From assembly GCA_038503075.1 (NCBI GenBank), contig JBCAML010000008.1, positions 1,240,001 through 1,304,000 on the forward strand: 64,000 bases of DNA. Reading direction: 5' to 3'. The DNA comes from Gyromitra esculenta (taxonomy: Eukaryota > Ascomycota > Pezizomycetes > Pezizales > Discinaceae). The notes under the pieces were generated by a model. That model was not told the origin of the DNA. It made no database searches and was given only the letters and a program-made list of their open reading frames with translations. The translations under genes were made by a program, and so were the position numbers. This document shows, piece after piece, positions 17,288 to 46,142 of the stretch. The number at the start of each line of letters is the position of its first letter. The stretch's first letter is position 1.

Positions 17288-17486
17288 CCTGATGCACAGT
17301 CACAAGCGAGTATAATTTCTCTACTTGTCCTACAAACCCTTAACCATTAAACTCCAAATAAGTCCGGCTTATGGTGGATACAAAAATCAAAAACCTACTC
17401 TCTACACAAAACATAGCTATAGGGTGGACCACAACAGTCTGTAGCTAACCGGCAAGGATGAGAACTTTTGCTAGCTGGCCTCTTTC

Positions 17487-18381: not shown

Positions 18382-18383
18382 GT

Positions 18384-18395
18384 ATATTGATAGGC
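18384..18395 (+). other. Putative primer-binding site of Gypsy-A copy 1
   Basis: Just inside the 5' LTR, ATATTGATAGGC is complementary, allowing one bulged base, to GCCTTATCAATAT in the LTR around the presumed RNA start (the 17880-17892 region; this copy has GCGCTATCAATAT). That suggests self-priming. Copy 2 has the same arrangement at about 43314-43326. Confidence 0.4.
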
Positions 18396-18647
18396 GTATC
18401 AATCTTTGGTTATTATAATGGCGGATGTATTTGTGATGGATACAGACATGTCGACGGTTACGAGGATCGTGCTCGAGACATTCTTGAAGACTCCTTGGCG
18501 TCGCTACATCTTTCTGGCGCCGTTGCAACGCGCAGTCATCTCTTCTGGACAGTCTGAGGATGTTCATGCGCAGCGTGATAATCTCATCTTCTACGCTAAA
18601 CGAAGCCTTTAGACACGTTGTCTTAAGGCAAGAAGAGGCTCAGGCAG

Positions 18648-20496: not shown

Positions 20497-20689
20497 CCAA
20501 ACATTCGAAACCCTGGCAATCGAAGAAAGAATTGTCTCAATCCTTGAGACCGAAAAATACAAAAACAAACGAAAAAGAAAAGAGGACGACTCTTCGGAAT
20601 CGTCGACAAAAAACAACATACAGAACCCACCGTATACGAGCGGCGAGGGCAAGCGCTACTGGTAATCAATGGAAGGAAGGTGGTAGTCA

Positions 20690-23600
20690 ATGTATTGCTA
20701 GATTCTGGAGCTAATGTTTTCTCTTGTCCCCTTTGTTTGTTAGGAAATGGTCGGTCCCAAAGGTGCAAAGAGACGCCCCGTTGACCGTTAGAAACTTCAC
20801 AGGTGAAGAAGTGGTTGGAGCGGGACAAGCCTTTACTAACCCTATTACTATGATCATAGGGAATAATCATACATCTAATGTATCTTGCGAGATTGGGCCA
20901 GTCGAGGCTGGGTTAGACTTGATAGTCTTGGGGGTTGGTGGTTGACGAGTCACCGGTTGGAAAACCCTTACGACCACGCAAACTGGAAGTTCGAATCTCC
21001 TGGTTGCTGTAACCAGTGTCTTCTGTGACGACTGCTCCTCTTAATACCGAGAACGATATCGAATATGACGAATGGCTGGGCCTGGACGAGAATGCCGAAT
21101 AATTGGCATGGTGCGTGCAATCGATGACGAAGAAACTGAACTTCTGAAGACTCTGGGAGCATACCACCGATTTGTCAGTCTATTCGGCACTCCCATCCAG
21201 GAATCCTTGCCAGAACGTAGGCCATTCGATCACGCTATTGATCTCGAGCATGGGACAACCGCCCCGTGGGGTCCAATCTATAAACTTTCGGAAAAAGAAC
21301 TTGAGATTCTCCGGAAGTACTTGGACAAAATGGTGGCCGAAGGAAGATACGGCCAAGCAAGTCACCTGCTTGGGTCGCCCATATTATTCGCGCCGAAACC
21401 AGACGGAGGGCTACGACTATGCGTAGATTACCGTGGCTTGAACAAGGTGACAGTAAAGAACCGATACCCTCTGCCGCTAATGTCGAATTGCGTGATAGAG
21501 TCGATGGGGCTTCGATCTTTCTCAAACTGGACCTCAAAGATGGTTTTCACCAGATCCGTATCAAAGAAGGCGATGAGTGGAAAACAGCGATTCGTACAAG
21601 ATATGGTCATTTCGAGTACACAGTCATGCCTTTCGGCTTGGCAAACGCCCGGCAACCTTTCAAGATATGATGCATCAGGTGCTCCGCGAATTTCTGGACC
21701 AAGGGGTCGTGGTTTATATTGACGACATCCTCATCTACTCAAAGACCCTCGAGGAACATGAGGCCTTGGTGACCAGAGTCCTGCAGCGGTTGGAGGACGA
21801 GGGTTTGGCAGTATCCATTAAGAAAAGCTACTTTCACTTGCGGGAAGTTGAGTTTTTAGGGTACATAATTTCTGACAAAGGCGTGTCTATGTCAATGAAG
21901 AAGGTCGAGTCAATCCTTTCATGGGAAACCCCGAAGAGCATACGCGATGTTCAGGTATTCATTGGATTCGCCAATTTTTACCGACGGTTCATCGAAAATT
22001 TCTCCCAAGTTGCAAGTCCCTTAAGGAGTTAACCAAAGGGGACCCCAAGAAATTCCAATGGGGTGACCGTCAAGCGATAAGCTTCGAGTACCTAAAAGTT
22101 GCGCTTCACGACAGCACCTATCCTTTGTCACTTTGCGCCGGAACGGCAGACTGTAGTAGAAACCGACGCCTCAGACTATGCGGCGGTTGCGTCCTCTCGC
22201 AGATCATCGATAGCAAGCTACATCCCGTAGCATTCCATTCAGAAAATTTAATAAAGCGAACTTAACTACGAGGTGCACGATAAAGAACTACTCGCGATAG
22301 TAACCACCTGCAAGGAATGGCGACATTACCCAGAAGGAAGCAAGCACCAAGCGATCGTCTATACGGACCATAAAAATCTCGAATATTTCATGAAGGAGAC
22401 AAGGATCCTAAATCGACGACAGGTAGATGGGCGGAATATTTATCGTCATTCGACTTTAAAATCATATATCGACCTGGATCGACGGGAGGAAAGCCAGATG
22501 CGTTATCAAGACGACCGGAGTATCGTCACAGGAGGGGATACAACACAGCCTACAGAAGCCATGTTCGAAGCGGTAAAGTCGATATGACTGGCCGTCCCGT
22601 AAGTCAATCGTTATATCGCTTAATTCATAGAAAAGACGATAACACAATTGTACAAAACCAAAACGATGACCGTTACACTTTCTGAGCTGGACTCAAACGG
22701 CAATCATCGCAATTATAATTTTAATCACTAATACAACACACGAGAGCTACTTATTTCATCAGCATCCCTCAAAGCGCTTCAAGTCGCTTAAATTTAATTC
22801 GGACTTTTGGAGCAGGTTAAAAGGAAGGTTGAGTCGACGAAGACTATAAGGAAATTCGAGACTTAGTTAAAGCTGGCAGCGAAATCAAGAGGCTACAACA
22901 CTACGCAGTGATGGAGGAACTCCTCTATTGGAAAAACAGGCTAACAATCACTAACGATGATGAAATCAAAACTACCGATTTTAGAAAATGAACACGACTC
23001 CAAGATAGCGAGGGCACTTTGGCATGGACAAAACCACGGAACTTGTTCAGCGGAACTTCTACGGCCTCATATGACCGAGTGGATTACAGATTACGTCCGC
23101 TCATGCGATCAATGCCAACATAACAAATCCGTGCGTCATAAGAAATATGGACTCCTGCAACCGCTAGAGACCCCATACGGCTCCATGGATGTCGATATCA
23201 ACAGACTTCATCGTCCAGTTACCGAGTCGAGAGGATTCACCCAAATATGTGTAGTAGTTGACAGGTTTACCAAGATGGCGCACTTCATCCCACTAATAGA
23301 AAGAGCTACAGCAAGTGATGTGGCAAAGGCTTTTGTTGACAAAGTTTGGAAACTTCACGGGCTTCCGAAAGAAATTGTTTCAGATCGAGATGCTAAGTTC
23401 ACAGGGGAATTCTGGACCTCATTATGCAAACTTCTAGACATTAAGTCCAGCAAATCTACCGCATTCCATCCTGAGACCGACGGACAAACCGAAAGGGTTA
23501 ATCAAGTCCTGGAAGCCTACCTAAGAAACTTCGTCAACTACGACCAAGATGACTGGTACGACCTACTGCCGTTAGCAGAGTTCGCTTACAACAATGCCGA

Positions 23601-24260
23601 AGCCACAGCCACTGGAATCAGCCCCTTCTATGCCAATCATGGTTTCCATCCCAGAACAGCTTGGACGATTGATACCGAAGTCAAGAATCCAGCGTCAAAG
23701 TTATACGCACATTGGCTTCAGAAAGTAAACGATTTTGCCACTACCTCGCTCAAAGCGCGAGAAAACATGTCCAAATATTTTGACAAGAAACGACAGGCGG
23801 AGCCATCGCTTTAAGGTCGGAGATTTAGTAATGCTCGACGCCAGAAACATTAGAACCAAGCGTCCAACGAAAAAGTTAGCCCTAAGTCATACGGACCCTT
23901 CCCGATTACGCGAGTCGGTACTAGAGCTTGCACTTTAGATACAGGAGGTCGCTGGAGGATATTCACCTTCCATGTATCTTGCTCGAGCCATCGGACAAGC
24001 GTCAGGAAACCCGAAAACAAGACCGACCGCCGCCTGACGACATTGAAGGTGACAATGAGTACGAGGTGGAATACATCGTCAAAAGCGAGAAGAGAGAAAC
24101 CAAAGTGGGACGACGAACGATCGGCCGGATGTTATTTCGTCAAATGGGTGGGATACGGAAGATGAGAACTCATGGGAACCTGCCGACGAAGGAGGATTAG
24201 CCAATGCAGCCGAAGCAATTGCCGAATTTCACAGTCTTTACCCACAACAGCCTAAGCCAT
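20690..24260 (+). pseudogene. Gypsy-A copy 1 pol remnant (PR-RT-RH-IN-chromodomain)
   Basis: In order: protease (LLDSGANVF, 20695-20940), reverse transcriptase (about 21072-22030, with YIDDILIYS), RNase H (about 22040-22560), integrase with DDE core (22957-23814, with DGQTERVN) and a chromodomain remnant (23928-24260). The frame is broken at many points, for example near 21330, 21380, 21650, 22030 and 23815, and the copy cannot make a working polyprotein. Copy 2 gives the unbroken comparison for most segments. Confidence 0.9.
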
Positions 24261-24470
24261 AATCTGTTTCACATTTGTATTCTTTCCTTGCGTTTAGAAT
24301 ATGTATAAAATGTTTTACTACTAAAAAGAAACTAGGCGAGGAAAATTTTCCATCGTGGCCAAGTAAACGCGGTGTTTTTTACGTACCCAAGATGCTATAG
24401 TACCACTTTGTAATCAGTTAATTATTTTGTATTATAGTTAGACGAGGACGACTAACCTAGGAGGGGATTA

Positions 24471-25198
24471 TGTTATACCTATTGGTAGCTTAGTTGGTTA
24501 TGACTTGAGTTCGCATACGATGCACACATATGGACTAGCGTTCAATCCCCGACCATGTCGGTTATTATTAATCTTGGTTGATTATTAATAAGATTCGGAT
24601 TGGATGTTTGGTTTCCTTGTGTCATCAATGGCCGACTCTTTCGATCGACACTTCCCCGATTTGCTTATACGTTGCGTCGCCGATTAATTCCGACAATCAC
24701 GCCATACGATAATGAGAGGGGTAGGAGCGAAGGAAAGCGTTTCAGGGTCTATGGGATTTCTTCATGTTAGTTCATGTTATTACATAGTCTTTGTATTCGA
24801 CGCTTGACTACTATAAGTAGTCCAGTGTTCTACCGTTGAGAAGGGTCTTCTTCCGGATCATTAGCGACGAAGAACGAGCCTTATCAATATTATATTGTTT
24901 CTAGCAAAATTACTTCCGTGCAATTTACTCTATTACTTGTGAATTACTTTTATCTCGCTTAGCAAGGCTTTGGCCCTTCAGCGTTAGTTATTAAACCTTA
25001 CTATTGGAAGTTCTTCACGGAACTTTGCTCGATCCCTACTTTGAACCCTACGGTTATCTTTTAGCGGTTCATAAGAGGCAGTTAGGACTTGCGCCTGTGT
25101 ATTGTGTTGCGGATAGCAACCGGGCAGGTTATAGCGTCTAGATTGTTATCTAAAGCTTCTTGGAGATTTCCTGTGCGGTAAGAAGTACCGGTCTTACA
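24471..25198 (+). repeat. 3' LTR of Gypsy-A copy 1 (short type)
   Basis: A 728-bp LTR, TGTTATACC...CGGTCTTACA, preceded by the purine tract AGGAGGGGATTA. It has the short internal block, like the 5' LTR of copy 2 and unlike its own partner at 17487-18381. Confidence 0.92.
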
Positions 25199-25240
25199 GC
25201 GTGTGTCATCGAAGAGGTGGAATGTGGGTATATAAGCGAA

Positions 25241-25650
25241 TCTTAAGGAATGAGGTTTCTCGTCAAGCTCTCGGGTATCCCCAGAGATGAGCAGTGCTAC
25301 TTGAACAAGGAACTAACAACGAGAGTGTACGCGAAGATTCCACGGGCTCTACGAGTTCTTCGAATAGTGAAGGTTCGAAGACAGCGACAGCAAAAAGATT
25401 ACGAAGTGCAACCGAGGTTTGTATTGAAAAATACAAGAGTGACTATAGAAGACGTTGCTTAAAGAAAGAAGAAGAAAAAGTACAACAAGAGGGGAAATCC
25501 CTTCGCTTATATACTCATAATCCATCTCTCTGATGACAAACGTATGACTCATTGTAAATGAAACCAAAAGAAACATATCGAAACGACAACGGAACACCAC
25601 AATCAAACACCCGTACAACTAATCGAACAATACAGCAACCATCCATGAAA
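25241..25650 (-). mobile_element. R-family solo LTR R2
   Basis: A 410-bp minus-strand LTR (read on plus: TCTTAAGG...CCATGAAA), flanked by GCGAA at 25236-25240 and 25651-25655. It is inserted in R1 directly downstream of that LTR's TATATAAG box. ORFs at 25250-25533 and 25349-25618 are open frames inside the LTR and not genes. Confidence 0.9.
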
Positions 25651-25906
25651 GCGAAAGGTTTTCCCCTCTTTGTACTTTTCTCTCTTTTCTCTTTAAACAA
25701 CGTCTTCTATTGTCACTTTCCTTGTATCCAACAATACAAGCCAGGATTCTCTCAAATCCTTCGTCGCCTCCGTGATATTCTTCATGTTTATCACGTCGCT
25801 ACATTAACGTAGTTTCGCTGTCGGAGTCATCAGAACTCCTTCTCATTGTAGAGCCTGTGGAATCATCGTTTAACTCCTGTCGCTAGTTTCCGTTCAAGTA
25901 GCACTG

Positions 25907-26315
25907 TCTCAAGGAGCAGGTTTCTTATCAAGCTCTTGAGTATCCCTCGAGATGAGCAGTGCTACTTGAGTGGGAAACCAACAGTGAGAGTGTGTACGGA
26001 GATTCTACAGGCTCTATGAGTGGGTCAAGTTGAGATGACTTGACGACAGCGACAGCGACGGGTTACGTGGTATAACCGAGGTTTGTATTGTGGAATACAA
26101 GAGTAAACAATAGAAGACGTTGCTTAAAGAAAGAAGAAGGAAAAGTACAACATGAGGGGGAATCCCTTCGCTTATATACTACGTTCCAACTCCATCGATG
26201 ACAAAGACATGACTCATTGTAGCAGGAAACCCATAGAAACACAAAGAACGACAACAGAACGCGACAACCATGTACCCATGTACCTAATCAGTCAACAAAA
26301 CATCCATCCATGAAA
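25907..26315 (-). mobile_element. R-family solo LTR R3
   Basis: A 409-bp minus-strand LTR (TCTCAAGG...CCATGAAA on plus) inserted in R1, with the duplication CACTG at 25902-25906 and 26316-26320. The target lies in the conserved AGTAGCACTGCTCACC segment near the 3' end of R1. Confidence 0.9.
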
Positions 26316-26375
26316 CACTGCTCACCTTTGGGGATACCAAAGGGCTTGACGAAAACCTCGCTCCTAGAGAGAAAT

Positions 26376-26927
26376 AAGCCATATAGGTAGTAATATCTCA
26401 CGGTTCGACACCTTTGTTAAGCCCTTCAGTATCCCTGAAGGTGAGAAGTGCTACTTAAGCGAGGTGTCAACACGTTTGAATAGTGCGATGTTTCTACAGG
26501 TTCTATGAGGGGTCTATCTCAAGGTGAGATAAGTGCTGCAAGGTGGATAGCGACAGCGAGGGTTCTGAGGTAGAACCGAGATAGTATTTGAATAGTACAA
26601 GAGAAGGTAAAAGAGAACGTTGCTTAAGGAAAGAAGAAGAAGAAGATACACAACCACCAAATTCCCACACTTAAATACCCCGCTTCTAACACCTTGTGAC
26701 TCCTAACCAAACCTGAACCGAACAACAAAGACATTATACGAAATCTCATAACCCATTACAACTATTAACCGAAACCTAACCCATCACCCGATCCAATCCG
26801 TGAAATAATACAGGAAACATGTCTTTATTTCATGTGTTTTTCTGAGCTCTGTCATGAGCATGGAAAAATTGCCCATATTGTTAGGGCGTGGTTTTGTTGC
26901 TGTCGCCTCATTAAACGGCCACTACTG
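26376..26927. mobile_element. TA-flanked MITE, one arm (split by inversion)
   Basis: One terminus reads ...CACTACTG at 26927, followed by TA. The other terminus, ...TGCTACTG followed by TA, is at 44264. About 70 bp inside each end are alike (26850-26927 and 44199-44264). They now point the same way, but become inverted repeats starting CAGTAG if the 25.2-36.2 kb segment is turned back. TA duplication and CAGTA-like ends suggest a Tc1/mariner-Fot1 type. The arm contains the B-type solo LTR at 26396-26805. Confidence 0.7.
26396..26805 (-). mobile_element. B-family solo LTR B1
   Basis: A 410-bp minus-strand LTR (TCTCACGG...CCGTGAAA on plus), flanked by TAATA at 26391-26395 and 26806-26810. It is related to the Gypsy-B LTR and keeps the ACGTTGCTTAA segment (complement of the self-primer). 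Confidence 0.9.
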
Positions 26928-26947
26928 TAGGTCTCATATTTAATTGG

Positions 26948-27677
26948 TTTTGTTAAATCATTGTTTCATTGTTTTATCTAGGTACAAGAATATCACATGC
27001 AACCGAAGTTATAGCGTGAACAAAACCTTACTCTCTCAACCCTCCTAGACAAAAGAAAATACAAAAGAAACAAATATCCAGTGAACAAGTACTGTTGGTG
27101 GAGCTGATGTCTCAAGGAGCGAGATTCTTGTCAACCTCTTGGGTATCCCCCGGGATGAGCAGTGCTACTTGAACAAGAAACTAACGACAAGAGTGTACGC
27201 GAAGATTCCACAGGCTCTACGAGTTCTCCGAACAATGAGGGTTCGAAGACAGCGACAGCGAAAAGTTACAAGGGGTAACCGAGGTTTTGTATTGTAAAAT
27301 ACAAGAGTGACTATAGAAGACGTTGCTTAAAGAAAGAAGAAGGAAAAGTACTACAAGAGGGGGAATCCCTTCGCTTATATACCCATAATCCATCTCTCTG
27401 ATGACAAACGTATAACTCATTGTAAAAGGAACCAAGGGAAACGTATCAAAACAACGACAAAACAAAACAACCGAACACCCATGCCACTAACCAAACAATG
27501 CGACCACCATCCATGAAACGATGATAGTGAAGTTTAGTGTGTTTGATTGATAGAAAACTGCTGGCCTTGGTAGTAGCAGTCTACTGGTGCATCAAGCACA
27601 AATGAGGTAGAGATGAAGGCACGCATTAAGCAGAGGCGAAGAGAAAGGCTGTAACCGAGATTGCAACTGAGGAGAGA
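26948..27677 (-). mobile_element. NAL retroposon copy 2, 3' part
   Basis: The minus-strand 3' portion of the same family as 14573-15130, ending in a short A run at 26948-26951. It is interrupted by solo LTR R4 (27110-27518) and then by R5, which begins at 27678. Its 5' part lies at 32168-32444 in the opposite orientation because of the inner inversion; AGAGA at 27673-27677 matches TCTCT at 32440-32444 as reverse complement. Confidence 0.82.
27110..27518 (-). mobile_element. R-family solo LTR R4
   Basis: A 409-bp LTR (TCTCAAGG...CCATGAAA) inside NAL copy 2. The flanks are TGATG (27105-27109) and CGATG (27519-27523). The homologous place in NAL copy 1 reads CGATG, so the left copy has undergone one C-to-T change. 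Confidence 0.88.
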
Positions 27678-27794
27678 TCTCAAGGAGCGAGATTCTCGTC
27701 AAGCTCTCAGGTATCCCCCAAGATAAGCAGTGCTACTTGAACGAGAAACTAACAGCGAGAGTGTCTATGGAGATTCTACAGGCTCTACGGGCGA
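27678..27794 (-). mobile_element. R-family solo LTR R5, first part (split)
   Basis: The first 117 bp of an R LTR, cut at 27794 by the A'-type LTR that follows. The rest is at 32445-32742 in opposite orientation. Both pieces together give about 410 bp. Outer flanks AGAGA (27673-27677) and TCTCT (32440-32444) are reverse complements, as expected if the inner segment was inverted. Confidence 0.85.
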
Positions 27795-28742
27795 TATTAT
27801 ACCTGTACCTTTTGAAGGAGTTTCTGGCCCTGGAGTTACCCTATCTTTGGAGTTACCCTACTTTAGCACCTTCCGGATCGGGACTGGTGCCTGTTACCCT
27901 GCCTCCAATCCTTCCAGTAGGTATAGTATTTGGAGAAGGGGGGACAGCACCAGAAAAGACCTGTCCCGGAGGGCAAAAGTAACCCCTAGGCCGTCAAGCA
28001 AAACCGTCCGGCGGAATGGGACCCGGAGGGTATGTACGGGAAGTGTCTGGCTTCGCTGTGGTTCAAACCGATTGCGAATCGGACCAAAACTGGCGGAGTT
28101 ACAAACTGACAAAGTTAAGAGAACGCAATGCTACGCGATAATTCCGATAGGCAAAATGATTGTCTCGAAGAGACGAACGCAATGAAGACAAATATGTAAC
28201 TCCCGTGTTACCGACATGCATACTGCTTTGAGAATCGCGGATGGGGGCCAGGGAACTCAATGGGGTATCGGGTATGGAGATAAGGTGAAGTGGTTTTATG
28301 TTGTCATAGTAGTTAGCGCCTCTACACCACACTATACCCAAACATAGTAGAGAGGAGGCATTATAAATACTCTCGCAGTGGATGTAAACTCTGAGTCGGA
28401 TCATTAGCGACGAAGAACGAGCCTTATCAATATTATATTGTTTCTAGCAAAATCACTTCCGTGCAATTTACTCTTTTACTTGTGAATTACTTTTATCTCG
28501 CTTAGCAAGGCCTTGGCCCTTCAGTGTTAGTTATTAAAGCCCTACTATTGGAAGTTCTTCACGGAACTTTGCTTGATCCCTACTTTTAACCCTACGGTTA
28601 TCTTTTAGCGATTCATAAGAAGCAGTTAGGACTTGCGCCTGTGTATTGTGTTGCGGATAGCAACCGGGCAGGTTATAGCGTCTAGATTGTTATCTAAAGC
28701 TTCTTGGAGATTTCCTGTGCGGTAAGAAGTACCGGTCTTACA
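27795..28742 (+). mobile_element. A'-type solo LTR, copy 1 (recombinant)
   Basis: A 948-bp LTR beginning TATTATACC (a change from TGTTATACC) and ending GGTCTTACA. From about 28400 on it matches the R-U5 half of the Gypsy-A LTR, while the first ~600 bp are unrelated to the Gypsy-A U3. Flanks are GGCGA (27790-27794) and GTATG (28743-28747), which do not match each other but match the flanks of copy 2 as reverse complements. ORFs within it (27730-28185, 28099-28404) are not genes. Confidence 0.9.
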
Positions 28743-28747
28743 GTATG

Positions 28748-31700
28748 CACATATATATCTGTCGATTTCACCAATTCATATCAAGCTAGCTTTTTAATTG
28801 AAAACTATCTTAGAGATGATATGATTAATATTCTTCTCACCTTCAAAAATCCAATCTTCAATGAATCAACATACAGCATCAATATCCTGAACATCTATAA
28901 TCGCGCTAGACCTGATTCAGGTGGTCATTTTATTCACCATTCCAAGATCTTTTTCAACCGCAATCTTCCTACCCTCATAGTAGGTGATTTTAACATCCAT
29001 CACCTTTCCACGGACCCATTACGAAATATCTCCTCCCAAGAATACAACGAAGGGGAGAAATATCACTTATCTGCAAATCAATCATCCTTCAAATGCCTCA
29101 ATACAGCAGGAATATTTACAAGATTCCCGTACGACTCCCACTCCAGACCAAGCGTATTTGATCTCAGCTTTGGTAACTCGCTCATCCTTCCATTTATAAC
29201 AAAATGGAACACTAGCCTACCCTCTACTGGCTCTGACCATATTCCTATTGCCATTCACCTCTCCACCCCAAAATTTTATACATCAAACCCCTCTCCAGAC
29301 TGGTCTAAAACAGACTGGAAAAAACTCTTACCCCTCATTAAAGACCTAAAAATCCCCGCTCCCTCACCACTCCCAAATCTCGATGTATGGTTCCATGAAT
29401 CCCTAAAACTCGTCACCAACCCGCTCACCTCCTGCACCCCCACAAAAAGACCATCGATATGGTCCAAAAAATGGTGGACGCCTCTCCTTTCTGAACTTCG
29501 AAGAATCTTTCACTCGGTCGACAGATCTCACAGATCTAAATTTCGTGGCCTAAAAGCCCCTCCATCAGAGAAGGTTAAAAAAGCAAAATATGCCTATTTT
29601 CACGAAATCGCTCGATGTAAAAAGAACCATTGGAACTCCTTCCTTTCTTCTGCATCTCCCTCAGACATCTGGGCCGCTAAAAGACTCAAAACCTCCTCCA
29701 ACAGTGAAGCTTTTCCCAGTCTTCCCAATATCGACTCCCCCTCACAACTCGCCTCTACCCTTATCGAACACTTTTTTCCCCCAAAAGAAAATCCACCTGC
29801 ACCCAATTATTTTCCTCACAGCGACTTCATTGAAATCGACTTCGATGAGATCTCAAAAGCTCTTAGCTCTTCCTCCAACTCGTCTGCGCCTGGACCCGAT
29901 ACTATATCCTATAGTATCTGGAAAAGAATTAACGCAATTAACCCCCAAATCATTCACCAATTACTCAATCCACTAGCACGCTATGGATATCACCCACTTC
30001 AACTCAAGAAAGCCTTCGACATCGTTCTCCCGAAACCTAACAAGGAATCATATGACTCCCCAGCCTCGTTTAGAGTAATTGTACTACTCGAAACACTCTC
30101 ACAGATCCTGGAAAGAATCTTTGCTACGCGCCTAGCTTTTCTCTCCCGATCAAACGGACTCATCCACCCAAACCAATGCGGTTCCCTCTCACTTATTTCC
30201 ACTGGCGACGCAGTTTCCCCACTTCTACACGACATTCAACTTCTCCAAGCTGCTGACAAAAAAGTCTCAACCCTCTTCCTCGATATTAAAGGGGGTTTTG
30301 ACAATGTCAACCCTTACATCCTTAAAAAAAGACTCCTTGACCATAACATTCCCCAATATATGACCTCATGGATTATCTCCTTTTTACACTCTCTTGAATG
30401 CGCCCTTCTTTTTAAGGGTTCACCTCGCACCTTTTTACCAGTCTCTGTCGGAGTTCCTCAAGGCTCCCCCATTTCTCCGCTTCTTTTTTGCATCTATGTT
30501 GCTCCCCTTCACTTGCAAAATGATTTCAAATTTACATTTTCCTACGTTGACGACTTCGCCATTACGGTCTTCTCGCACTCATCCAGAAAGAATGCTAAGC
30601 TCCTGGAAAAAGCCGCACATGATATAAACCAAATTGGTCAGAATATCAAAGTCAGCTTTTCTATTCCCAAAACAGAGCTAATCCACTGGACAACAATCCA
30701 CAACCGTCTTCCTCCAACTCCAGGTGCCGCCATAAATCTAAACGGCCACACCTTTTACCCTCTAACATGTGTTCGATGGCTAGGATTTTGGTTAGCCTAC
30801 AATTTTAACACAAATTCGCATTTTCTCAAACGTCTCTCTTCGGCCCAAAAAGCCTTCTTCGCCATTAAATCTCTTTCTCCCTCTGGTTCCGGACTGACTA
30901 GCCACAATGCCCGCAAACGAGCAATGGGGCTGATCAGGCCCATCCTCTCGTATGGCATGAACGTGTTCACACCATCCGCATCAATCCTTTGCAAAATAAG
31001 CCCCTTTTGGAATAATATCCTCAGATGGATCACCAATTGCTTTTCCTCTACTAATATTGGTGCCCTTACAAGAGAAGCTTCTCTTCCACCAATGATAGCT
31101 TTCGCCCACTATCTAAGAAGACGACATGCCATTCGCATCGCCACCTTACCCGTTCTATTCAACCCCGCCTCAGCTCGCCTCCCTCCAAATTTTCAGGCAG
31201 ACGGCACTCCTTTACCTCTTCTACGAATTCACCTGAAAGGCCTAGGCGCCAAAAGACCCAGACCTTGGTACTCTAACGCCAAAAGCCGGGTTCGTCCTTT
31301 AGTCATTGACTCGTTCGCGAACGAAGCGTGGAAATACCTCCCCGCCAACTACTACCCCGGAGCTGCAGGTCCTATCCTGGAGAAACCAAACCCAAATCGA
31401 ACAATGATAATCAAAGCCAGTAATGTCGCTATCAGTTCCCAACTTATTAAAGATTGGGACTCATACGCGCCAAGCCCCGATTACTACCCGTATCCTACCT
31501 CAACACTACCACACCTATTCATGAAATTTTCAAAATTCATGGCAGGTCGCATTCACCAAATGAGAGCCCATAAAAGTTATCTCAATGCTCATACATCCTG
31601 GTCCCATAACGGCCCTACATCGTGTTCCCTATGCGGTGACACTTTTCAAAATTTTTCTCATGCTATTCTACATTGCTTTGCACTGTCATCCGAACGAAAT

Positions 31701-31940
31701 TTATTTATTCCCTTTATAAATTCCCTAGATGCAGACTCTCCAATTTGTAACAACATCTCATCCTTAATTGCTCTTGCTGAATTTATTTCTAAAACAAGAA
31801 CAAATTTTCCTTCAATTAAAGAAATTGTTTTATCAGATCTTTCATCTTCCGGTTCATCAGATATTTTATCATCTGTTTCTTCTCATTCTACATCATCTCT
31901 TTCGTCCCTGTTAAATTTTTTTGATTTAATGGAGGATTAA
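28748..31940 (+). pseudogene. LINE ORF2, major part (endonuclease end, reverse transcriptase, zinc finger)
   Basis: Encodes the C-terminal part of an APE-type endonuclease (GDFNIHH; SDHIPI), a non-LTR reverse transcriptase (FLDIKGGFDNV, GVPQGSPISPLLF and the catalytic FSYVDDF), then a C-terminal CSLCGD...HAILHC zinc-binding segment of zf-RVT type. I see no RNase H domain. The reading frame is open to the TAA at 31938-31940, but the first ~77 codons lie elsewhere, at 33692-33921 on the minus strand. An LTR inserted into the gene with duplication GTATG, then an inversion, separated them. The two parts are in frame across the duplication, giving 1140 residues. The first 14 codons of the longer ORF starting at 28704 are LTR sequence. 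Closest clade by architecture: fungal Tad1-like, not certain. Confidence 0.9.
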
Positions 31941-32167
31941 TCTTTTTACGCTAGCTTTGGTAATTTTTTCGGCACGTGTCTGCCAATTGGGAATACCTGT
32001 TTAAGGAAAAACCTTTTCAGTTTTTAAAAAAGTTTTGTTTTATTTTTGGAGGGTTGTAGGGATTTAGGGTTTTGTTCACGCTATAACTTCGGTTGCATGT
32101 GATATTCTTGTACCTTTTATATATAAAACAATGAAACAATGATTTAACAAAAAAAAAAAAAAAAAAA
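31941..32167 (+). mobile_element. LINE 3' UTR and poly(A) tail
   Basis: About 105 bp of non-coding sequence, then 32048-32148, which is shared with the NAL retroposons (for example the segment CGGTTGCATGTGATATTCTT), then 19 A residues at 32149-32167. This marks the 3' end of the LINE. NAL copy 2 follows directly, so no target duplication can be read at this end. Confidence 0.85.
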
Positions 32168-32444
32168 CTGCAACCATGACCTAGGCATGCTCCCTCTCCT
32201 CTACACTTCATTCACTTGAAGCAACAACTCCTCCTTCTGCATTGCAACAGGGTGACACAGGGTCAAAAGTCTTTAGCACTTTGGCTTCACCCCCGCTTCG
32301 TGATACTCCTCCTCCTCTCATGATGCCCTTTTTGTTTTAAAAGGGAAGCATCCATCATGATACACCCACTCACCCTTTGCCCTCTCCTATGAGACTCAAG
32401 GGCCCCACCAATTCTCCTGCCTTTCATACAGGTCAGGCCTCTCT
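32168..32444 (+). mobile_element. NAL retroposon copy 2, 5' part
   Basis: Starts CTGCAACCATGACC immediately after the LINE poly(A) and runs through the same sequence as the 5' half of copy 1 (about 14930-15130 reversed). It stops at TCTCT (32440-32444), the duplication of solo LTR R5. Its first 14 bases equal the 5' end of the LINE at 36037. Confidence 0.82.
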
Positions 32445-32742
32445 TTTCACGGATGAATATTGTTGTTGGTTAATTAAGCATGGGGGTGCGCGGTCGCTGT
32501 GTTACGTTGTTGTTCATTGCGTTTCCTTTGGGTTCCGGTATAATGAGTCATTCGTTTGTCATCAAAGAGATGGAATATGGGTATATAAGTGAAGGATTGT
32601 CCCCTCTTGTTGTACTTTTCCTTCTTCTTTCCTTAAGCAACATCTTCTATTGTACACTCGTTGTATCCTACAATACAACCCTCGATTACACCTCGTAATC
32701 CTTCGCTGTCGCTGCCTTCAAGTCATCATAACTTGATTCGCC
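32445..32742 (+). mobile_element. R-family solo LTR R5, second part (split)
   Basis: Begins TTTCACGG and contains the TATATAAG box (about 32583) and TTAAGCAAC segment. It is cut at 32742 by the A'-type LTR. The last five bases, TCGCC (32738-32742), are the reverse complement of GGCGA at 27790-27794. Confidence 0.85.
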
Positions 32743-33691
32743 TGTAAGACCGGTACTTCTTACCGCACAGGAAATCTCCAAGAAGCTTTAGATAACACTC
32801 TAGACGCTATAACCTGCCCTGTTGTTATCCGCAACACAATACACAGGCGCAAGTCCTAACTGCTTCTTATGAATCGCTAAAAGATAACCGTAGGGTTAAA
32901 AGTAGGGATCAAGCAAAGTTCCGTGAAGAACTTCCAATAGTAGGGCTTTAATAACTAACACTGAAGGGCCAAGGCCTTGCTAAGCGAGATAAAAGTAATT
33001 CACAAGTAAAAGAGTAAATTGCACGGAAGTGATTTTTGCTAGAAACAATATAATATTGATAAGGCTCGTTCTTCGTCACTAATGATCCGACTCAGAGTTT
33101 ACATCCACTGCGAGAGTATTTATAATGCCTCCTCTCTACTATGTTTGGGTGTAGTGTGGTGTAGAGGCGCTAACTACTATGACAACATAAAACCACTTCG
33201 CCTTATCTCCATACCCGATACCCCATTGAGTTCCCTGGCCCCGATCCGCGATTCTCCGAGCAGTATGCATGTCGGTAACACGGGAGTTACGTATTCGTCT
33301 TCATTGCGTTCGTCTCTTCAAGACAATCATTTCGCCTATCCGAATCGTCGCGTAGCATTGCGTTCCCTTATCTTTGTCAGTCTGTAACTCGGCCAGTTTT
33401 GGTCCGATTCGCAATCTGTTTGAACCACAGCGAAGCCAGACACTTCCCCTACATACCCTCCGGGTCCCATTCCGCTGGACGGTTTTGCTTGACGGCCTAG
33501 GGGTTACTTTTGCCCTCCGGGACAGGTCTTTTCTGGTGCTGTCCCCCCTTCTCCAAATACTATACCTACTGGAAGGATTGGAGGCAGGGTAACAGGCTCC
33601 AGTCCCGATCCGGAAGGTGCTAAAGTAGGGTAACTCCAAAGATAGGGTAACTCCAGGGCCAGGAACTCCTTCAAAAGGTACAGGTATAACA
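32743..33691 (-). mobile_element. A'-type solo LTR, copy 2 (recombinant)
   Basis: A 949-bp inverted copy of the LTR at 27795-28742, nearly identical by eye. Flanks TCGCC (32738-32742) and CATAC (33692-33696) do not match each other; they match the flanks of copy 1 as reverse complements. This LTR interrupts the LINE endonuclease domain. Confidence 0.9.
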
Positions 33692-33921
33692 CATACTCTG
33701 ATTTTCTGATTAGGGAGAATGGAGGGGATAAGGAGGTGGTATCCTGGAGCTTTGAGAGGTTTGTTGTTCCAAAGGTAGGGATCTTGGATGGCAACGATTG
33801 AAGGCATGGATTTAAAGGACGAAAATAATGAATGAAAAATTTTTGAACTTCTAGCGCAGTTATGATGAACAACGCTGAAAGGGGGGAGAGGAAGATTTTT
33901 AGATGGGGGATTTCTGGGCAT
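33692..33921 (-). pseudogene. LINE ORF2, N-terminal fragment (endonuclease start)
   Basis: Starts with ATG at 33919-33921, two bases after the ORF1 stop. It encodes the beginning of an APE-type endonuclease (HHNCARSS, then IVAIQDPYLW). The frame continues in the piece starting at 28748 once the LTR and one copy of GTATG are left out. The tail of the longer open frame (33301-33690) is LTR sequence. Confidence 0.87.
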
Positions 33922-33923
33922 AA

Positions 33924-35899
33924 TTATTCGGATGACATGGATGTGTCAGCAGCAGATGGTGCTGATTTAATACTAGATTTGTCCAGAATAGTCTTGCGAA
34001 TGGGGCATTGAAGGTCAGTGGCGGTGTGATTTCCGTTGCAGTTAATGCAAACAGTTGAAGAAATGGGGCAGCAATTGACGATTGGTTTATCATTGCCACC
34101 TCCGGAGCATGTGGGGATGGAACAACGATGTTCGTGTCTAGGATGATCGTTTGAGCAAATAGGGCAAGTATGAGTTAAAGCTTTGTAGCCGGCAGTAGCG
34201 TGGCCAAAGCCCCAACATTTTTTGCATTGAGTGGTTGAAGAGGCAGACCACATGATATTGGCCTTGCGAGGTCGGGAAAAGAGTTTGATTGAGGAGCCAA
34301 TTTTCTTGGCATCGTTTGCGGAGCAAGAGATGACTACCGAAGTAGTTTTCTTTGTGGCACGAAGGGCAGCGTCCGTTTTAAGGAATCTTGCGCTAGTGAT
34401 TTGAATATCTGCGGCGTAGAGGATAGCTTTGGAAAGAGTGGTTGTAAGTTTGCTGGACTCGTCGGGGAGGGCAAATGTAGGGATGTTGTGGATAGCGACA
34501 TTGACGTCGGTAGGCGCTGTACGTATAGGATTAAATGGGTTATCCCCGATAGGGCAGCATTCATTGAGTGTTTTGTGAATGGCTGAGAAATAGGGGATGA
34601 ATGTGGAGGCTGGTGTGAAGGGATTGGCGGTGAAAGTAACAGTGCCTCTGTCATTTACAGTAGCTGACAGGGCCACGGATTGACTGTTGGGGAATTGGGC
34701 GGCTCTGAGGGCACATCCAATGGCTACTGGGAGTGTTGCAGATAATACAGCAGCTTCTGTGAAGGGAGAAGCAGTGGTGCGGGAAGCAAAGAATCTTCTT
34801 TCAGCAGTAGGAAGGGGGCGTGGTGCTTTTTCCTTAGCTTCTTTTGGTTCTTTGGGTTTCGGTTGGCTTTTCTGGATGAGGGGTGCTGCAGTGTTATCTT
34901 TTGGGGGTGCGGATTTGGCCGCTTCGGCAAAGGTAAGTTTTTTCCCTTTCTTGGCAAGCGGGGTAGTGTTGGTTGGTGACGTGTCGGCTGCGCGTTTTTG
35001 GCTAACAACTTTATCGGCAAGATTGCTAATTGCGGCTTGGATTTGGTTGAGTTGTTGAGGGTGGTTAATAGTAGGAGCTGTTTGCGACGAAGTAAGCAGC
35101 TCTTCGAGTTTGGTCATTCTAGTGTCCATGGACGATAGCATGTGTGTGGTGTTGATGACAAGCGCAATTAAAATTGCTTCAGTCCGAGAAGGGTCGGCGA
35201 GCGCGAGGTTTTGAACAATGGGAGCAATTCTCAAGGAGCGAGATCTCGTCAAGCCCTTTGGTATCCCCAAAGGTGAGCAGTGCTACTTGAACGGGAACTA
35301 GCGACCGGAGTTTAAGCGATGACTCCACAGGCTCTACAATCGAAGGGAGTTCGGATGACTCCAACAGCGAAACTTCGTTTGAAGTAGTGGTGTGATAGAA
35401 AGAGAGGTATCACGGAGACGACGAAGGATTAGGTGGGAATCCTGGCTTGTATTGTAGGATACAAGTAGAGTGACAATAGAAGATGTTGCTTAAGAGAAGA
35501 AGAAGAAAAAGTACAACAAGAGGGGAAATCCCTTCGCTTATATACTAAAGTTCCAACTCTTTTGATGACAAAGACATGACTCATTGCAACAAAAACCCAG
35601 AGAAACGAAAAGAAAGATAACAAAACGCGACAACCATGTACCCATGTACCTGTCCGACCAACGAAACGACCATCCATGAAAGCAATGCTCGTTTGGTTGA
35701 TAGGTGATTGTGCAATGAGTTTGCAGAGAATATCTTGCATCTCCGAAAGTGCACTTGAGGACATAATAGTGGGCGTAGAGGGACGAACAGGAGAATTGAC
35801 TCTTGATGGAGTGCCCGAAGAAGGCTGGAGAAGGGGAGTTGCAGAAAAATTCCTTCCACTGAGGAAGGGGGAGAAGAGTAGAATGTTTTCAGACATCAC
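33924..35899 (-). pseudogene. LINE ORF1 (gag-like, zinc knuckles), interrupted by a solo LTR
   Basis: Coding parts are 35682-35899 and 33924-35223. Together they make 506 codons in frame when the LTR at 35229-35681 and one GCAAT are left out. The protein has a Ser/Pro-rich start, a helical segment (MDTRMTKLEELL), a Lys/Pro-rich middle, and C-terminal CCHC-like knuckles (CKKCWGFGHATAGYK, CPICSNDHPRHEHRC, CINCNGNHTATDLQC) expected to bind the LINE RNA. It ends TAA at 33924-33926, and the ORF2 ATG follows after two bases. Confidence 0.88.
35229..35681 (-). mobile_element. R-family solo LTR R6
   Basis: A 453-bp LTR of the long R subtype (TCTCAAGG...CCATGAAA on plus) inserted in LINE ORF1. The duplication is GCAAT at 35224-35228 and 35682-35686. 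It is the only insertion in ORF1. Confidence 0.92.
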
Positions 35900-36037
35900 T
35901 AACGCTACGGTGAAGCTGAAAAATAGAGGGTTATGGTGGAGGACTGAGATTTGCGAGAAGGTTGGTAGTCCCGAATAGGAAGGTGTTTTTCAGAAAAAAT
36001 TGTGTAGAGGAGACGGAGCGTCGGGTCATGGTTGCAG
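35900..36037 (-). mobile_element. LINE 5' UTR
   Basis: Non-coding sequence upstream of ORF1. Read on the minus strand it starts CTGCAACCATGACC at 36037, the same 14 bases that begin NAL copy 2, and shares TCTCCTCTACAC shortly after. That places the LINE 5' end at or near 36037. Confidence 0.7.
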
Positions 36038-36222
36038 TGTATGTGAGTATACATATACCTGTACCTATAAGTCATGCAGGGTCACTCTCGGGAAAATAAC
36101 CATTTAAATTATATGTTATAGCTAGAATACGTAGTATATGGGTTCGTTCGCTGAGTGCAAACCATATACTGCCTTGGGCCACGACGCAATACAGAGCAAC
36201 TTAAGTGTAAACTGCGTGAAAG

Positions 36223-37138
36223 TGTAAGACCGGTACTTCTTACCGCACAGGAAATCTCCAAGAAGCTTTAGATAACAATCTAGACGCTATAACCTGCCCG
36301 GTTGCTATCCGCAACACAATACACAGGCGCAAGTCCTAACTGCTTCTTATGAACCGCTAATAGATAACCGTAGGGTTCAAAGTAGGGATCGAGCAAAGTT
36401 CCGTGAAGAACTTCCAATAGTAAGGTTTTAATAGCTAACGCTGAAGGGTCCTTGGCCCTATGTGTAGTTTGAATATCGCTTGCTTTGCTTGTTGGGTATC
36501 GTGTTCGTTCGAATATACTCTTCGTCTAACCAATCTGGAAGGACGAGGTCTGTTGTGGACGCGTCGTGACTTTGAGGTTCGTGTCGCGTGAAGCAACAAC
36601 AAAGTCTCTTGAAGAAATAAAGGATTCTTTGCATGAAGAAAGTATTACTTGAAGATGAAACGAACACAGGACCTTGAGAGTATGAATGAAAGTCGTATAC
36701 CGCTAAGCTATACAATATAATATTGATAAGGCTCGTTCTTCGTCGCTAATGATCAGGAAGAAGACCCTTCTCAACGGTAGAACACTGGACTACTTATAGT
36801 AGTCAAGCGTCGAATACAAAGGCTATGTAATAACATGAACTAACATGAAGAAATCCCATAGACCCTGAACGCTTTCCTTCGCTCCTACCCCTCTCATTAT
36901 CGTATGGCGTGATTGTCGGAATTAACCGGCGACGCAACGTATAAGCGAATCGGGGAAGTGTCGATCGAAAGAGTCGGCCATTGATGACACAAGGAAACCA
37001 AACATCCAATCCGAATCTTATTAATAATCAACCAAGATTAATAATAACCGACATGGTCGGGGATTGAACGCTAGTCCATATGTGTGCATCGTAAGCGAAC
37101 TCAAGTCGTAACCAACTAAGCTACCAATAGGTATAACA
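36223..37138 (-). repeat. 3' LTR of Gypsy-A copy 2 (long type)
   Basis: A 916-bp LTR of the long type, matching the 5' LTR of copy 1 rather than its own partner. In element orientation it is preceded by the purine tract GGAGGGGGATAC. Confidence 0.92.
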
Positions 37139-37349
37139 GTATCCCCCTCCTAGGTTAGTCGTCCTCGTCTAACTATAATACAAAATAATTAACTGATTAC
37201 AAAGTGGTTCTATAGCATCTTGGGTACGTAAAAACCACCGCGTTTACTTGGCCACGATGGAAAATTTTCCCCTCAGCTAGTTTCTTTTTAGTAGTAAAAC
37301 ATTTTATACATATTCTAAACGCAAGGAAAGAATACAAATGTGAAACAGC

Positions 37350-39065
37350 TTATGGCTTAGGCTGTTGTGGGTAAAGACTGTGAAATTCGGCAATTGCTTC
37401 GGCTGCATTGGCTAATCCTCCTTCGTCGGCAGGTTCCCATGAGTTCTCATCTTCCGGGTATCCCACCCATTTGATGAAATAGAACATCCGGCTGATCGTT
37501 CGTCGTCCCACTTTGGTTTCTCTCTCGCTTTTGACGATGTATTCCACCTCGTACTCATTGTCACCTTCAATGTCGTCAGGCGGCGGTCGGTCTTGTTTTC
37601 GGGTTTCCCTGACGCTTGTCCGGTATGGCTCGAGCAAGGATACATGGAAGGTGGGGAATATCCTCCAGCGACCTCCTGTATCTAAAGTGCAAGCTCTAGT
37701 ACCGACTCGTGTAATCGGGAAGGGTCCGTATGACTTAGGGGCTAACTTTTTCGTTGGACGCTTGGTTCTAATGTTTCTGGCGTCGAGCATTACTAAATCT
37801 CCGACCTTAAAGGATGGCTCCGCCTGTCGTTTCTTGTCAAAATATTTGGACATGTTTTCTCGGGTGGCTTTGAGTGAGGTAGTGGCAAAATCGTTTACTT
37901 TCTGAAGCCAATGTGCGTATAACTTTGACGCTGGATTCTTGACTTCGGTATCAATCGTCCAAGCTGTTCTGGGATGGAAACCATGATTGGCATAGAAGGG
38001 GCTGATTCCAGTGGCTGTGGCTTCGGCATTGTTGTAAGCGAACTCTGCTAACGGCAGTAGGTCGTACCAGTCATCTTGGTCGTAGTTGACGAAGTTTCTT
38101 AGGTAGGCTTCCAGGACTTGATTAACCCTTTCGGTTTGTCCGTCGGTCTCAGGATGGAATGCGGTAGATTTGCTGGACTTAATGTCTAGAAGTTTGCATA
38201 ATGAGGTCCAGAATTCCCCTGTGAACTTAGCATCTCGGTCTGAAACAATTTCTTTCGGAAGCCCGTGAAGTTTCCAAACTTTGTCAACAAAAGCCTTTGC
38301 CACATCACTTGCTGTAGCTCTTTCTATTAGTGGGATGAAGTGCGCCATCTTGGTAAACCTGTCAACTACTACACATATTTGGGTGAATCCTCTCGACTCG
38401 GGTAACTGGACGATGAAGTCTGTTGATATCGACATCCATGGAGCGTATGGGGTCTCTAGCGGTTGCAGGAGTCCATATTTCTTATGACGCACGGATTTGT
38501 TATGTTGGCATGGATCGCATGAGCGGACGTAATCTGTAATCCACTCGGTCATATGAGGCCAGTAGAAGTTCCGCTGAACAAGTTCCGTGGTTTTGTCCAT
38601 GCCAAAGTGCCCTGCTATCTTGGAGTCGTGTTCATTTTCTAAAATGGTAGTTTTGATTTCATCATCGTTAGGGATTGTTAGCCTGTTTTTCCAATAGAGG
38701 AGTTCCTCCATCACTGTGTAGTGTTGTAGCCTCTTGATTTCGCTGCCAGCTTTAACTAAGTCTCGAATTTCCTTATAGTCTTCGTCAGACTCAACCTTCC
38801 TTTTAACCTGCTCCAAAAAGTCCGAATTAAATTTAAGGACTTGAAGCGCTTTGAGGGATGCTGATGAAATAAGTAGCTCCTCGTGTGTTGTATTAGGATT
38901 AAAATTATAATGGTGATGATTGCCGTTTGAGTCCAGCTCGGTAAAGTGTAACGGGTCATCGTTTTGGTTTTGTACAATTGTGTTATCGTCTTTTCTATGA
39001 ATTAAGGATATAACGATTGACTTACTGGGACGGCCAGTCATATCGACTTGGCCGCTTCGGAACAT
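37350..39065 (-). pseudogene. Gypsy-A copy 2 integrase with chromodomain
   Basis: A 571-codon open frame. It has the HHCC-type zinc region (HDSKIAGHFGMDKT...CDPCQ), the DDE core (D in STDFIVQLPE, D in VSDRDAKF, E in DGQTERVN), and a C-terminal chromodomain with FIKWVGYPEDENSWEP. Chromodomains of this class direct insertion to heterochromatin, which fits the clustering of elements here. It overlaps the RT/RNase H frame by 28 bases in another frame. A functional pol would read through, so this is probably a frameshift mutation. Confidence 0.9.
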
Positions 39066-40747
39066 GGCTTCTGTAGGCTGTGTTGTATCCCCTCCTTAGG
39101 ACGATACTCCGGTCGTCTTGATAATGCATCTGGCTTTCCTCCCGCTGATCCAGGTCGATATATGATTTTAAAGTCGAATGACGATAAATATTCCGCCCAT
39201 CTAGCCTGTCGTCGATTTAGGATCCTTGTCTCCTTCATGAAATATTCGAGATTTTTATGGTCCGTATAGACGATCGCTTGGTGCTTGCTTCCTTCTAGGT
39301 AATGTCGCCATTCCTTGAAGGCGGTTACTATCGCGAGTAGTTCTTTATCGTGCACCTCGTAGTTAAGTTCGGCTTTATTAAATTTTCTGGAATGGAATGC
39401 TACGGGATGTAGCTTGCTATCGATGATCTGCGAGAGGACGCAACCTAGCGCATAGTCTGAGGCGTCGGTTTCTACAGTCTGCCGTTCCGGCGCAAAGTGA
39501 CAAAGGATAGGTGCTGTCGTGAAGGCAACTTTTAGGTACTCGAAGGCTATCGCTTGACGGTCACCCCATTGGAATTTCTTGGGGTCCCCTTTGGTTAACT
39601 CGGTTAAGGGACTTGCAACTTGGGAGAAATTTTCGATGAACCGTCGGTAAAAATTGGCGAATCCAATGAATACCTGAACATCGCGTATGCTCTTCGGGGT
39701 TTCCCATGAAAGGATTGACTCGACCTTCTTCATTGACATAGACACGCCTTTGTCAGAAATTATGTACCCTAAAAACTCAACTTCCCGCAAGTGAAAGTAG
39801 CTTTTCTTAATGGATACTGCCAAACCCTCGTCCTCCAACCGCTGCAGGACTCTGGTCACCAAGGCCTCATGTTCCTCGAGGGTCTTTGAGTAGATGAGGA
39901 TGTCGTCAATATAAACCACGACCCCTTGGTCCAGAAATTCGCGGAGCACCTGATGCATCATATCTTGAAAGGTTGCGGGGGCGTTTGCCAAGCCGAAAGG
40001 CATGACTGTGTACTCGAAATGACCATATCTTGTACGAAACGCTGTTTTCCACTCATCGCCTTCTTTGATACGGATCTGGTGAAAACCGTCTTTGAGGTCC
40101 AGTTTGGTAAAGATCGAAGCCCCATTGACTCTATCACGCAATTCGGACATTAGCGGCAGAGGGTATCGGTTCTTTACTGTCACCTTGTTCAAGCCACGGT
40201 AATCTACGCATAGTCGTAGCCCTCCGTCTGGTTTCGGCGCGAATAATATGGGCGACCCAGCAGGTGACTTGCTTGGCCGTATCTTCCCTTCGGCCACCAT
40301 TTTGTCCAAGTACTTCCGGAGAATCTCAAGTTCTTTTTCCGAAAGTTTATAGATTGGACCCCACGGGGCGGTTGTCCCATGCTCGAGATCAATAGCGTGA
40401 TCGAATGGCCTTCGTTCTGGCAAGGATTCCTGGATGGGAGTGCCGAATAGACTGACAAATCGGTGGTATGCTCCCGGGAGAGTCTTCAGAAGTTCAGTTT
40501 CTTCGTCATCGATTGCACGCACCATGCCAATTATTCGGGCATTCTCGTCCAGGCCCAGCCATTCGTCATATTCGATATCGTTCTCGGTATTAAGAGGAGC
40601 AGTCGTCACAGAGCACTGGTTACAGCAACCAGGAGATTCGAACTTCCAGTTTGCGTGGTCGTAAGGGTTTTCCAACCGGTGACTCGTCAACCACCAACCC
40701 CTGGCACTATCAAGTCTAACCCAGCCTCGACTGGCCCAATCTCGCAA
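39038..40747 (-). pseudogene. Gypsy-A copy 2 reverse transcriptase and RNase H
   Basis: An open frame of 569 codons with [12 protein letters not shown], catalytic VVYIDDILIYS, FLGYIISDKG, and RNase H with VETDASDYALG and DHKNLEYFM. The first ~20 codons (before WLTSHRLENPYDH) are out-of-frame read-through of the protease end. All active-site residues seen are present. Confidence 0.92.
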
Positions 40748-40953
40748 GATACATTAGATGTATGATTATTCCCTATGATCATAGTAATAGGGTTAGTAAA
40801 GGCTTGTCCCGCTCCAACCACTTCTTCACCTGTGAAGTTTCTAATGGTTAACGGGACGTCTCTTTGCACCTTTGGGACCGACCATTTCCTAACAAACAAA
40901 GGGGACAAGAGAAAAACATTAGCTCCAGAATCTAGCAATACATTGACTACCAC
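40687..40953 (-). pseudogene. Gypsy-A copy 2 aspartic protease
   Basis: A short frame with the retropepsin active site LLDSGANVF near its start, ending GLDLIVPGVGG. It connects to the RT frame after a shift near 40690. Its start is unclear because the linker from gag (40954-41177) is in other frames. Confidence 0.8.
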
Positions 40954-41177
40954 CTTCCTTCCATTGATTACCAGTAGCGCTTGCCCTCGGGGCCGCTCGT
41001 ATACGGTGGGTTCTGTATGTTGTTTTTTGTTGGACGATTCCGAAGAGTCGTCCTCCTTTCTTTTTCGTTTGTTTTTGTATTTTTCGGTCTCAAGGATTGA
41101 GACAATTCTTTCTTCGATTGCCAGGGTTTCGAATGTTTGGTTAACGTCTGCTACCTCCTGGCCCGCCGGTAGTCGAC

Positions 41178-43077: not shown

Positions 43078-43327
43078 GAGATTATCACGCTGTGCATGAA
43101 CATCCTCAATTTGAGCACTGCTCCGTAGGAATTGCGGATGAGGCGTGAAGTGTTTTGGAATGAAAAGAAGCGGGTGTGAGATGGGTAGTTCTTCGACGGG
43201 CCAAGGAGTTCTTCGAAGAGTGTCTCGAGATGGGATCCTCAGAACCGTCAGACATGTCTGTATCCATCACAAATACGTCCGCCATTATAGTTGAATAACC
43301 AAAGTATTGATATGCCTATCAATATAC

Positions 43328-46078: not shown

Positions 46079-46080
46079 TT

Positions 46081-46089: not shown

Positions 46090-46142
46090 CCAACATCTAC
46101 ACCTTCTACCATCCAATCCACACAGAACCTCCCAACGTTATC

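Follow-up and report, generated by a model that had tools for sequence, protein, structure and literature searches.

Probable nested inversions between members of one Ty3/gypsy family in Gyromitra esculenta

Inverted repeats and the segments between them

In Drosophila buzzatii, inversion 2z3 was explained by a crossover between copies of the transposon Galileo (PMC2775673), and the same reading fits a locus of the ascomycete Gyromitra esculenta, where members of one Ty3/gypsy family of long terminal repeat (LTR) retrotransposons have probably inverted a segment of 11 kb and, nested within it, a second segment of 4 kb. The locus lies in a stretch of 64 kb (C8:1240001-1304000; hereafter the window) of a 47.1-Mb genome in 23 contigs. 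As described for 2z3, the elements at this locus are inverted copies with exchanged target duplications, both copies of the outer pair are chimeric and nothing was lost at the three joins compared with paralogues (PMC2775673). In contrast to 2z3, a cytological inversion attributed to a cut-and-paste transposon, the elements here are LTR retrotransposons, the segments measure 11 kb and 4 kb, and two nested events are reconstructed without an uninverted chromosome (PMC2775673).

Fungi offer related cases. Intrachromosomal exchange at inverted repeats flips the segment between them in Candida albicans, but eight of the nine inversions described there lie in repeats containing open reading frames (ORFs) and two were checked by polymerase chain reaction (PCR), whereas at our locus the repeats are LTR elements known by their sequence footprint only (PMC6591007). 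On Saccharomyces chromosome XIV, inverted repeats of 4 kb surround a 24-kb segment that exists in both orientations; unlike our elements, these repeats are genes kept alike by homogenization, and recurrence of the flip was shown there (PMC9731477). The crapaud element of Podospora anserina has LTR variants differing in the 5' half of the LTR and some copies with disparate LTRs, much as here, although these were ascribed to conversion or ectopic recombination while at our locus the flanks identify the partners (PMC10787394). A literature search on nested inversions with transposable elements, ectopic recombination and target site duplications returned no match; such cases may exist elsewhere. 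The mechanism is already known, and what is new is the doubled, nested footprint, unusually well preserved.

Exchanged duplications, LTR types and interrupted host elements

Two inverted copies of the element, copy 1 and copy 2, border the outer segment and share 95.8% identity over 6.9 kb in a self-comparison of the window (18158-24898 against 43553-36712). Judged from its domains, copy 2 is a Ty3/gypsy chromovirus (Metaviridae), because reverse transcriptase and RNase H are followed in it by integrase and a chromodomain; in Ty3/gypsy chromoviruses reverse transcriptase and RNase H stand ahead of integrase, and a chromodomain is present. LTRs of this family have TG...CA ends and 5-bp target duplications, the exceptions in the window being the LTRs at 17487 and 27795, which start with TA. 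As the preliminary description had reported, the duplications are exchanged between the copies: copy 1 (17487-25198) has CTTTC on its left and GCGTG on its right, and copy 2 (36223-44056) has GAAAG and CACGC, so that, reverse-complemented, it reads GCGTG...CTTTC. By our estimate, the chance of two independent 5-mer matches is about one in a million.

Three control sets give the background for this pattern. Twenty full-length copies of the family were fetched, of which 15 had both ends readable and 5 did not; exact target duplications flank 13 of the 15 (L019 at one of two candidate starts), L017 agrees at 4/5, and L014 is mismatched, its left flank being, in our reading, the interior of a neighbouring tandem copy. 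Among 20 long-type LTRs, taken as full-length matches from the 50 listed after setting aside those in the window and in L011, 12 have exact duplications, 3 agree at 4/5, 4 apparently abut the interior of an element (among them C5:1158550, which likewise agrees at 4/5) and 1 is mismatched. In the window itself 12 other units were examined, and of their 9 readable insertions 8 are exact and 1 agrees at 4/5. Mismatched duplications are rare in these genome samples, since few occur in the three sets, yet all four family units at the locus, namely copies 1 and 2 and the solo LTRs S1 and S2 described below, are mismatched and nevertheless pair off exactly.

Some of the controls deserve mention in their own right. 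In the long-type sample the one LTR with wholly mismatched flanks (GTAAG / CCACT), G000:C1:3185731-3186646, may mark a further rearrangement. At G000:C7:565336 and G000:C7:572323, 7 kb from each other, stand two solo LTRs whose flanks are almost identical on either side, as a local duplication would leave them. In L012 (G000:C1:2324600-2333900) one LTR is opposite in orientation to the abutting interior, which may reflect a truncated nested insertion or a rearrangement of this copy as well.

LTR types were exchanged along with the duplications. The family has at least three of them, 'long' (about 916 bp), 'short' (about 729 bp) and a third (about 949 bp), which have about the last 345 bp or less in common; the third type is found in 11 of the 15 readable full-length copies, and every one of the 15 has one type at both ends. 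Both window copies are mixed, copy 1 running from long to short and copy 2 from short to long, and both are therefore chimeric by LTR type. We propose that the outer pair descends from an element A, with target CTTTC and long LTRs at both ends, and an element B, with target GCGTG and short LTRs at both ends, which would have crossed over in common sequence and flipped about 11 kb. At LTR columns that split the four LTRs 2:2, the 5' LTR of copy 1 pairs with the 3' LTR of copy 2, and the 3' LTR of copy 1 with the 5' LTR of copy 2, in 206 of 207; since 203 of the 207 fall within a single block, they represent few independent events. Over 726 bp, the two LTRs assigned to B are separated by 6 substitutions and 2 gap events. 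Dating of A by LTR divergence was dropped, as its LTR differences are mostly private to one LTR.

The interior was aligned for copy 1, copy 2 and 18 other copies, and its markers suggest the same outer exchange. At sites of shared variation in 18915-19490, copy 1 has 0 mismatches to L011, a copy with long LTRs, and copy 2 has 15. Over 20281-22306 there is no difference between copies 1 and 2 with both alleles present in other copies; beyond it such sites are sparse and some lie inside noisy patches. Copy 1 has its last marker in common with L011 at 20223, a marker present in L021 and L025 too, and B-type LTR markers begin at 24740, so the crossover would lie somewhere between about 20.2 kb and about 24.7 kb in copy 1, a soft range.

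The elements interrupted by B provide a separate line of evidence. We joined the flanks of each insertion in the order that the model predicts, kept one copy of the duplication, and counted matches that run across the join. The reconstructed B site is continuous in every one of the 40 listed non-self matches (from 802 candidates, of which 40 were scored) and in several paralogues within the window, while no match in the window crosses either of two control joins taken as assembled. The host at this site is R1, a copy of a 451-bp repeat whose parts at 25199-25240, 25649-25911 and 26316-26370 align with one strand of L032, an intact copy, and whose part at 44057-44169 aligns with the other; at the insertion site on L032 the pieces overlap by 5 bp, the duplication length, and turning the segment back gives R1 the flanks ATTTC/ATTTC. 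R1 itself sits in a miniature inverted-repeat transposable element (MITE), whose pieces at 26371-26395, 26806-26929 and 44170-44270 tile the intact element L029, with an overlap of 5 bp at each of the two insertions that it received. The two MITE tips in the window are parallel and 17 kb apart, and they are opposite in all 9 close tip pairs elsewhere (among 40 matches listed). Once the outer segment is turned back, R1 and the MITE become continuous, as in intact copies elsewhere. The splits of R1 and the MITE had been recognised in the preliminary description and hold, with a correction to each: nested in the inner half of R1 are two further copies of the R1 repeat, at 25241-25650 and at 25907-26315, each with matching flanks, and the left part of the MITE also contains a related solo LTR. 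Copies of the 451-bp repeat thus inserted into copies of the same repeat, or into neighbouring elements, number three in this region with the one at 27110-27518; all have 5-bp duplications, one agreeing at 4/5, and a first look at the genome gave 802 to 1104 candidates for this repeat.

A listing of family LTR ends in the window revealed exchanged duplications also at two solo LTRs, S1 and S2, inside the outer segment. They are 97.3% identical and differ at 27 columns. We suggest that a crossover between these solo LTRs, or between full-length ancestors of them, inverted 4.0 kb; the original targets would have been GGCGA and GTATG. The two insertions, here C and D, would have interrupted another copy of the 451-bp repeat (C) and a long interspersed nuclear element, LINE (D). 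The empty site of C is continuous in 44 of 47 matches listed, with identities reaching 93% (from 1104 candidates, of which 40 were scored), and the 451-bp repeat regains its own AGAGA duplication when the inner segment is turned back. The neighbouring element V then becomes alignable end to end with a copy near 14.6-15.1 kb, at 77% identity with gaps counted, weakest at the join. The empty site of D is continuous in 37 of 38 non-self matches, at up to 96% identity, and its insertion point, by reading frames, is the LINE endonuclease region. The larger part of the LINE is an ORF of 1078 amino acids (28704-31940, plus strand) with Exo_endo_phos_2 and RVT_1 domains; as a result of the D insertion together with the inner inversion, the earlier part of the LINE and this main reading frame now lie on opposite strands. 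Host continuity is thus recovered at three of the four original insertion sites (B, C and D), and comparison of these joins with paralogues revealed no deletion, duplication or extra copy. Coordinates are collected in the table.

Table. Features of the outer and inner pairs, in window positions
Feature	Positions	Strand	Remarks
Copy 1 of Ty3/gypsy element	17487-25198	+	read as A 5' part and B 3' part
Copy 1 5' LTR	17487-18381	+	long type (A), heavily altered
Copy 1 3' LTR	24471-25198	+	short type (B)
Copy 2 of Ty3/gypsy element	36223-44056	-	read as B 5' part and A 3' part
Copy 2 5' LTR	43328-44056	-	short type (B)
Copy 2 3' LTR	36223-37138	-	long type (A)
RT/RNaseH ORF of copy 2	39038-40747	-	RVT_1, RT_RNaseH
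Integrase/chromodomain ORF of copy 2	37350-39065	-	H2C2, rve, SH3_Tf2-1, Chromo
CTTTC, half of A target duplication	17482-17486	+
CTTTC, other half of A target duplication	36218-36222	-	GAAAG on plus strand
GCGTG, half of B target duplication	25199-25203	+
GCGTG, other half of B target duplication	44057-44061	-	CACGC on plus strand
Outer inverted segment	25199-36222	n/a	11.0 kb between the elements
R1 (451-bp repeat), inner part	25199-26370	-	with two nested copies of the same family
R1, outer part	44057-44169	+
MITE, inner part	26371-26929	+	broken by related solo LTR at 26396-26805
MITE, outer part	44170-44270	+
Solo LTR S1	27795-28742	+	third type of the same family; flanks GGCGA / GTATG
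Solo LTR S2	32743-33691	-	flanks GTATG / GGCGA in its own direction, exchanged with S1
Inner inverted segment	28743-32742	n/a	4.0 kb
LINE, rest of endonuclease and reverse transcriptase	28748-31940	+	strand opposite to LINE start
LINE, earlier part	33692-33841	-	across the inner inversion
451-bp repeat split by C, left part	27678-27794	+	flank AGAGA
451-bp repeat split by C, right part	32445-32742	-	flank AGAGA
Element V, left of inner inversion	27519-27676	+
Element V, continuation on far side	32186-32439	-

Crossover in the cell and competing explanations

We regard it as probable, from the exchanged flanks and the restored hosts, that the locus records two nested inversions, each made by ectopic recombination between inverted elements of a single Ty3/gypsy chromovirus family. 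The starting point would have been a break within an element, repaired homologously from its inverted partner on the same chromosome; repair resolved as a crossover would flip the segment between them and leave two chimeric elements with exchanged duplications. This supposes that the exchanges arose in a living cell and not during assembly, that they proceeded by homologous repair, and that two distinct crossovers took place; the nesting is silent on which came first. The 11-kb inversion by crossover between inverted elements, as put forward in the preliminary description, draws support from the exchanged duplications, the LTR types and the restored hosts at the GCGTG site, but that account was incomplete, having missed the inner segment. 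It had also called the pattern the exact footprint of crossover. Reciprocal exchange is indeed supported, because duplications and LTR types are exchanged and host elements are restored at the GCGTG site; a mis-oriented assembly, on the other hand, gives the same outer footprint.

Such an assembly error, with an uninverted true order and the two inverted copies of 7.7 kb connected wrongly during assembly, is in our judgement rather unlikely for the outer pair, although it would exchange flanks and LTR types exactly as a real inversion does, and although a reference orientation between inverted repeats in Candida albicans failed to amplify and was suspected to be in error (PMC6591007). Comparable copies elsewhere are resolved with matching duplications, including inverted pairs, namely L018 with its inverted neighbour about 3 kb away on C15 (L035/L036) and L016 with L024, about 25 kb apart on C9. 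The left flank of copy 1 has no strong excess of indels against a paralogue (505 bp with 28 mismatches and a single gap, and 233 bp with 14 mismatches and 3 gaps; its part at 17288-17486 is without a paralogue), and the window contains no N anywhere. The inner repeats are only 0.95 kb long and 4 kb apart, which makes their mis-assembly much less likely if long reads were used, as we infer from the number of contigs (23).

Several observations nevertheless weigh against two inversions by crossover. In the interior of copy 1, private substitutions number 84 and private indel events 48; the corresponding counts for copy 2 are 1 and 2, and none of the 18 other aligned copies exceeds 48 and 24. The excess is noisy: 51 of the 84 substitutions lie within two columns of another private event, and they are strand-asymmetric, with A>G 25 times and T>C 5 times (43 and 46 in the other copies together). 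Private to the 5' LTR of copy 1 are 53 letters and 15 gap columns, and the LTR presumed to be its partner, in copy 2, has none. This excess may reflect a poor local consensus, which keeps an assembly error alive as an explanation, or it might reflect conversion of one LTR. One of the 207 LTR columns (24662 in copy 1) contradicts the exchange, in a region where the 5' LTR of copy 1 aligns poorly. Over 18915-19490 a single mismatch separates copy 1 from L025, a copy with third-type LTRs, which makes it nearly as close as L011, and the 3' end of the copy 2 interior is not L011-like, with 3 mismatches to L011 and 0 to the short-LTR copy L018; under the model it is expected to be of A type unless the crossover lies beyond that stretch. 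The A empty site is single-copy and so offers no paralogue for comparison.

Clustering similar to that in copy 1 is found in L012 (19/32), L014 (17/31) and L015 (6/8). The stretch 17487-18600 combines clustered, strand-asymmetric changes with one-base losses private to copy 1, and smaller one-sided patches occur in L025, L016 and the extra LTR of L019. Simple age was ruled out as the source of the excess, since the sister LTR in copy 2 has no private changes. Old age or a distinct subfamily fits poorly with the identities of LTR and interior: over its length the 5' LTR of copy 1 reaches no more than about 92% identity to any relative given by the genome search, and the interior shows about 95% identity to the other copies if gaps are included (92-98% over 20500-22500).

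Gene conversion, or several unrelated exchanges with third copies, could have produced discordant ends with no inversion. The grossly unequal divergence of the A LTR pair is in keeping with this, and so is the finding in Podospora that 7 of 150 full crapaud copies have disparate LTRs (PMC10787394). We find it barely credible, however, as conversion would not swap the 5-mers at the flanks of one pair of elements, let alone of two pairs, and would leave the pieces of R1, the MITE, the LINE and V in their original orientation. A single complex event, such as template switching during repair, might be suspected of having made both inversions, which involve the same family and are nested; each footprint is complete alone, an ordinary crossover is enough for it, and the three checkable joins show no deletions or extra copies, so that we hold this to be very unlikely. 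Two crossovers between inverted family members thus remain our preferred reading. Because the inverted copies persist, both segments could also be live switches, with the 11-kb and 4-kb segments flipping independently and four configurations coexisting in the species or even in one culture, which we consider doubtful.

Neighbouring elements and significance

The left end of the window holds a glutamate synthase gene, in several open pieces, and the window also contains a dense nest of retroelements. Among these is a second gypsy element, apparently intact (45654-51532, plus strand), with AAAAG on both sides. Its LTRs (45654-46078 and 51109-51532) are 97.6% alike, and it has a gag ORF of 429 amino acids and a pol ORF of 1225 amino acids; Morchella sextelata is the commonest named fungus among the matches listed for an intact gypsy pol in the window, at 56-71% identity.

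Exchanged target duplications are a clean footprint of element-mediated inversion that can be read from a single genome, and swapped duplications let one assembly be scanned for past inversions. The locus, ready for PCR, allows one to ask at what frequency DNA in a fungus is flipped by LTR elements, perhaps including solo LTRs of less than 1 kb. Where duplications do not match, the partners should be identified before LTR divergence is used to date the copies.

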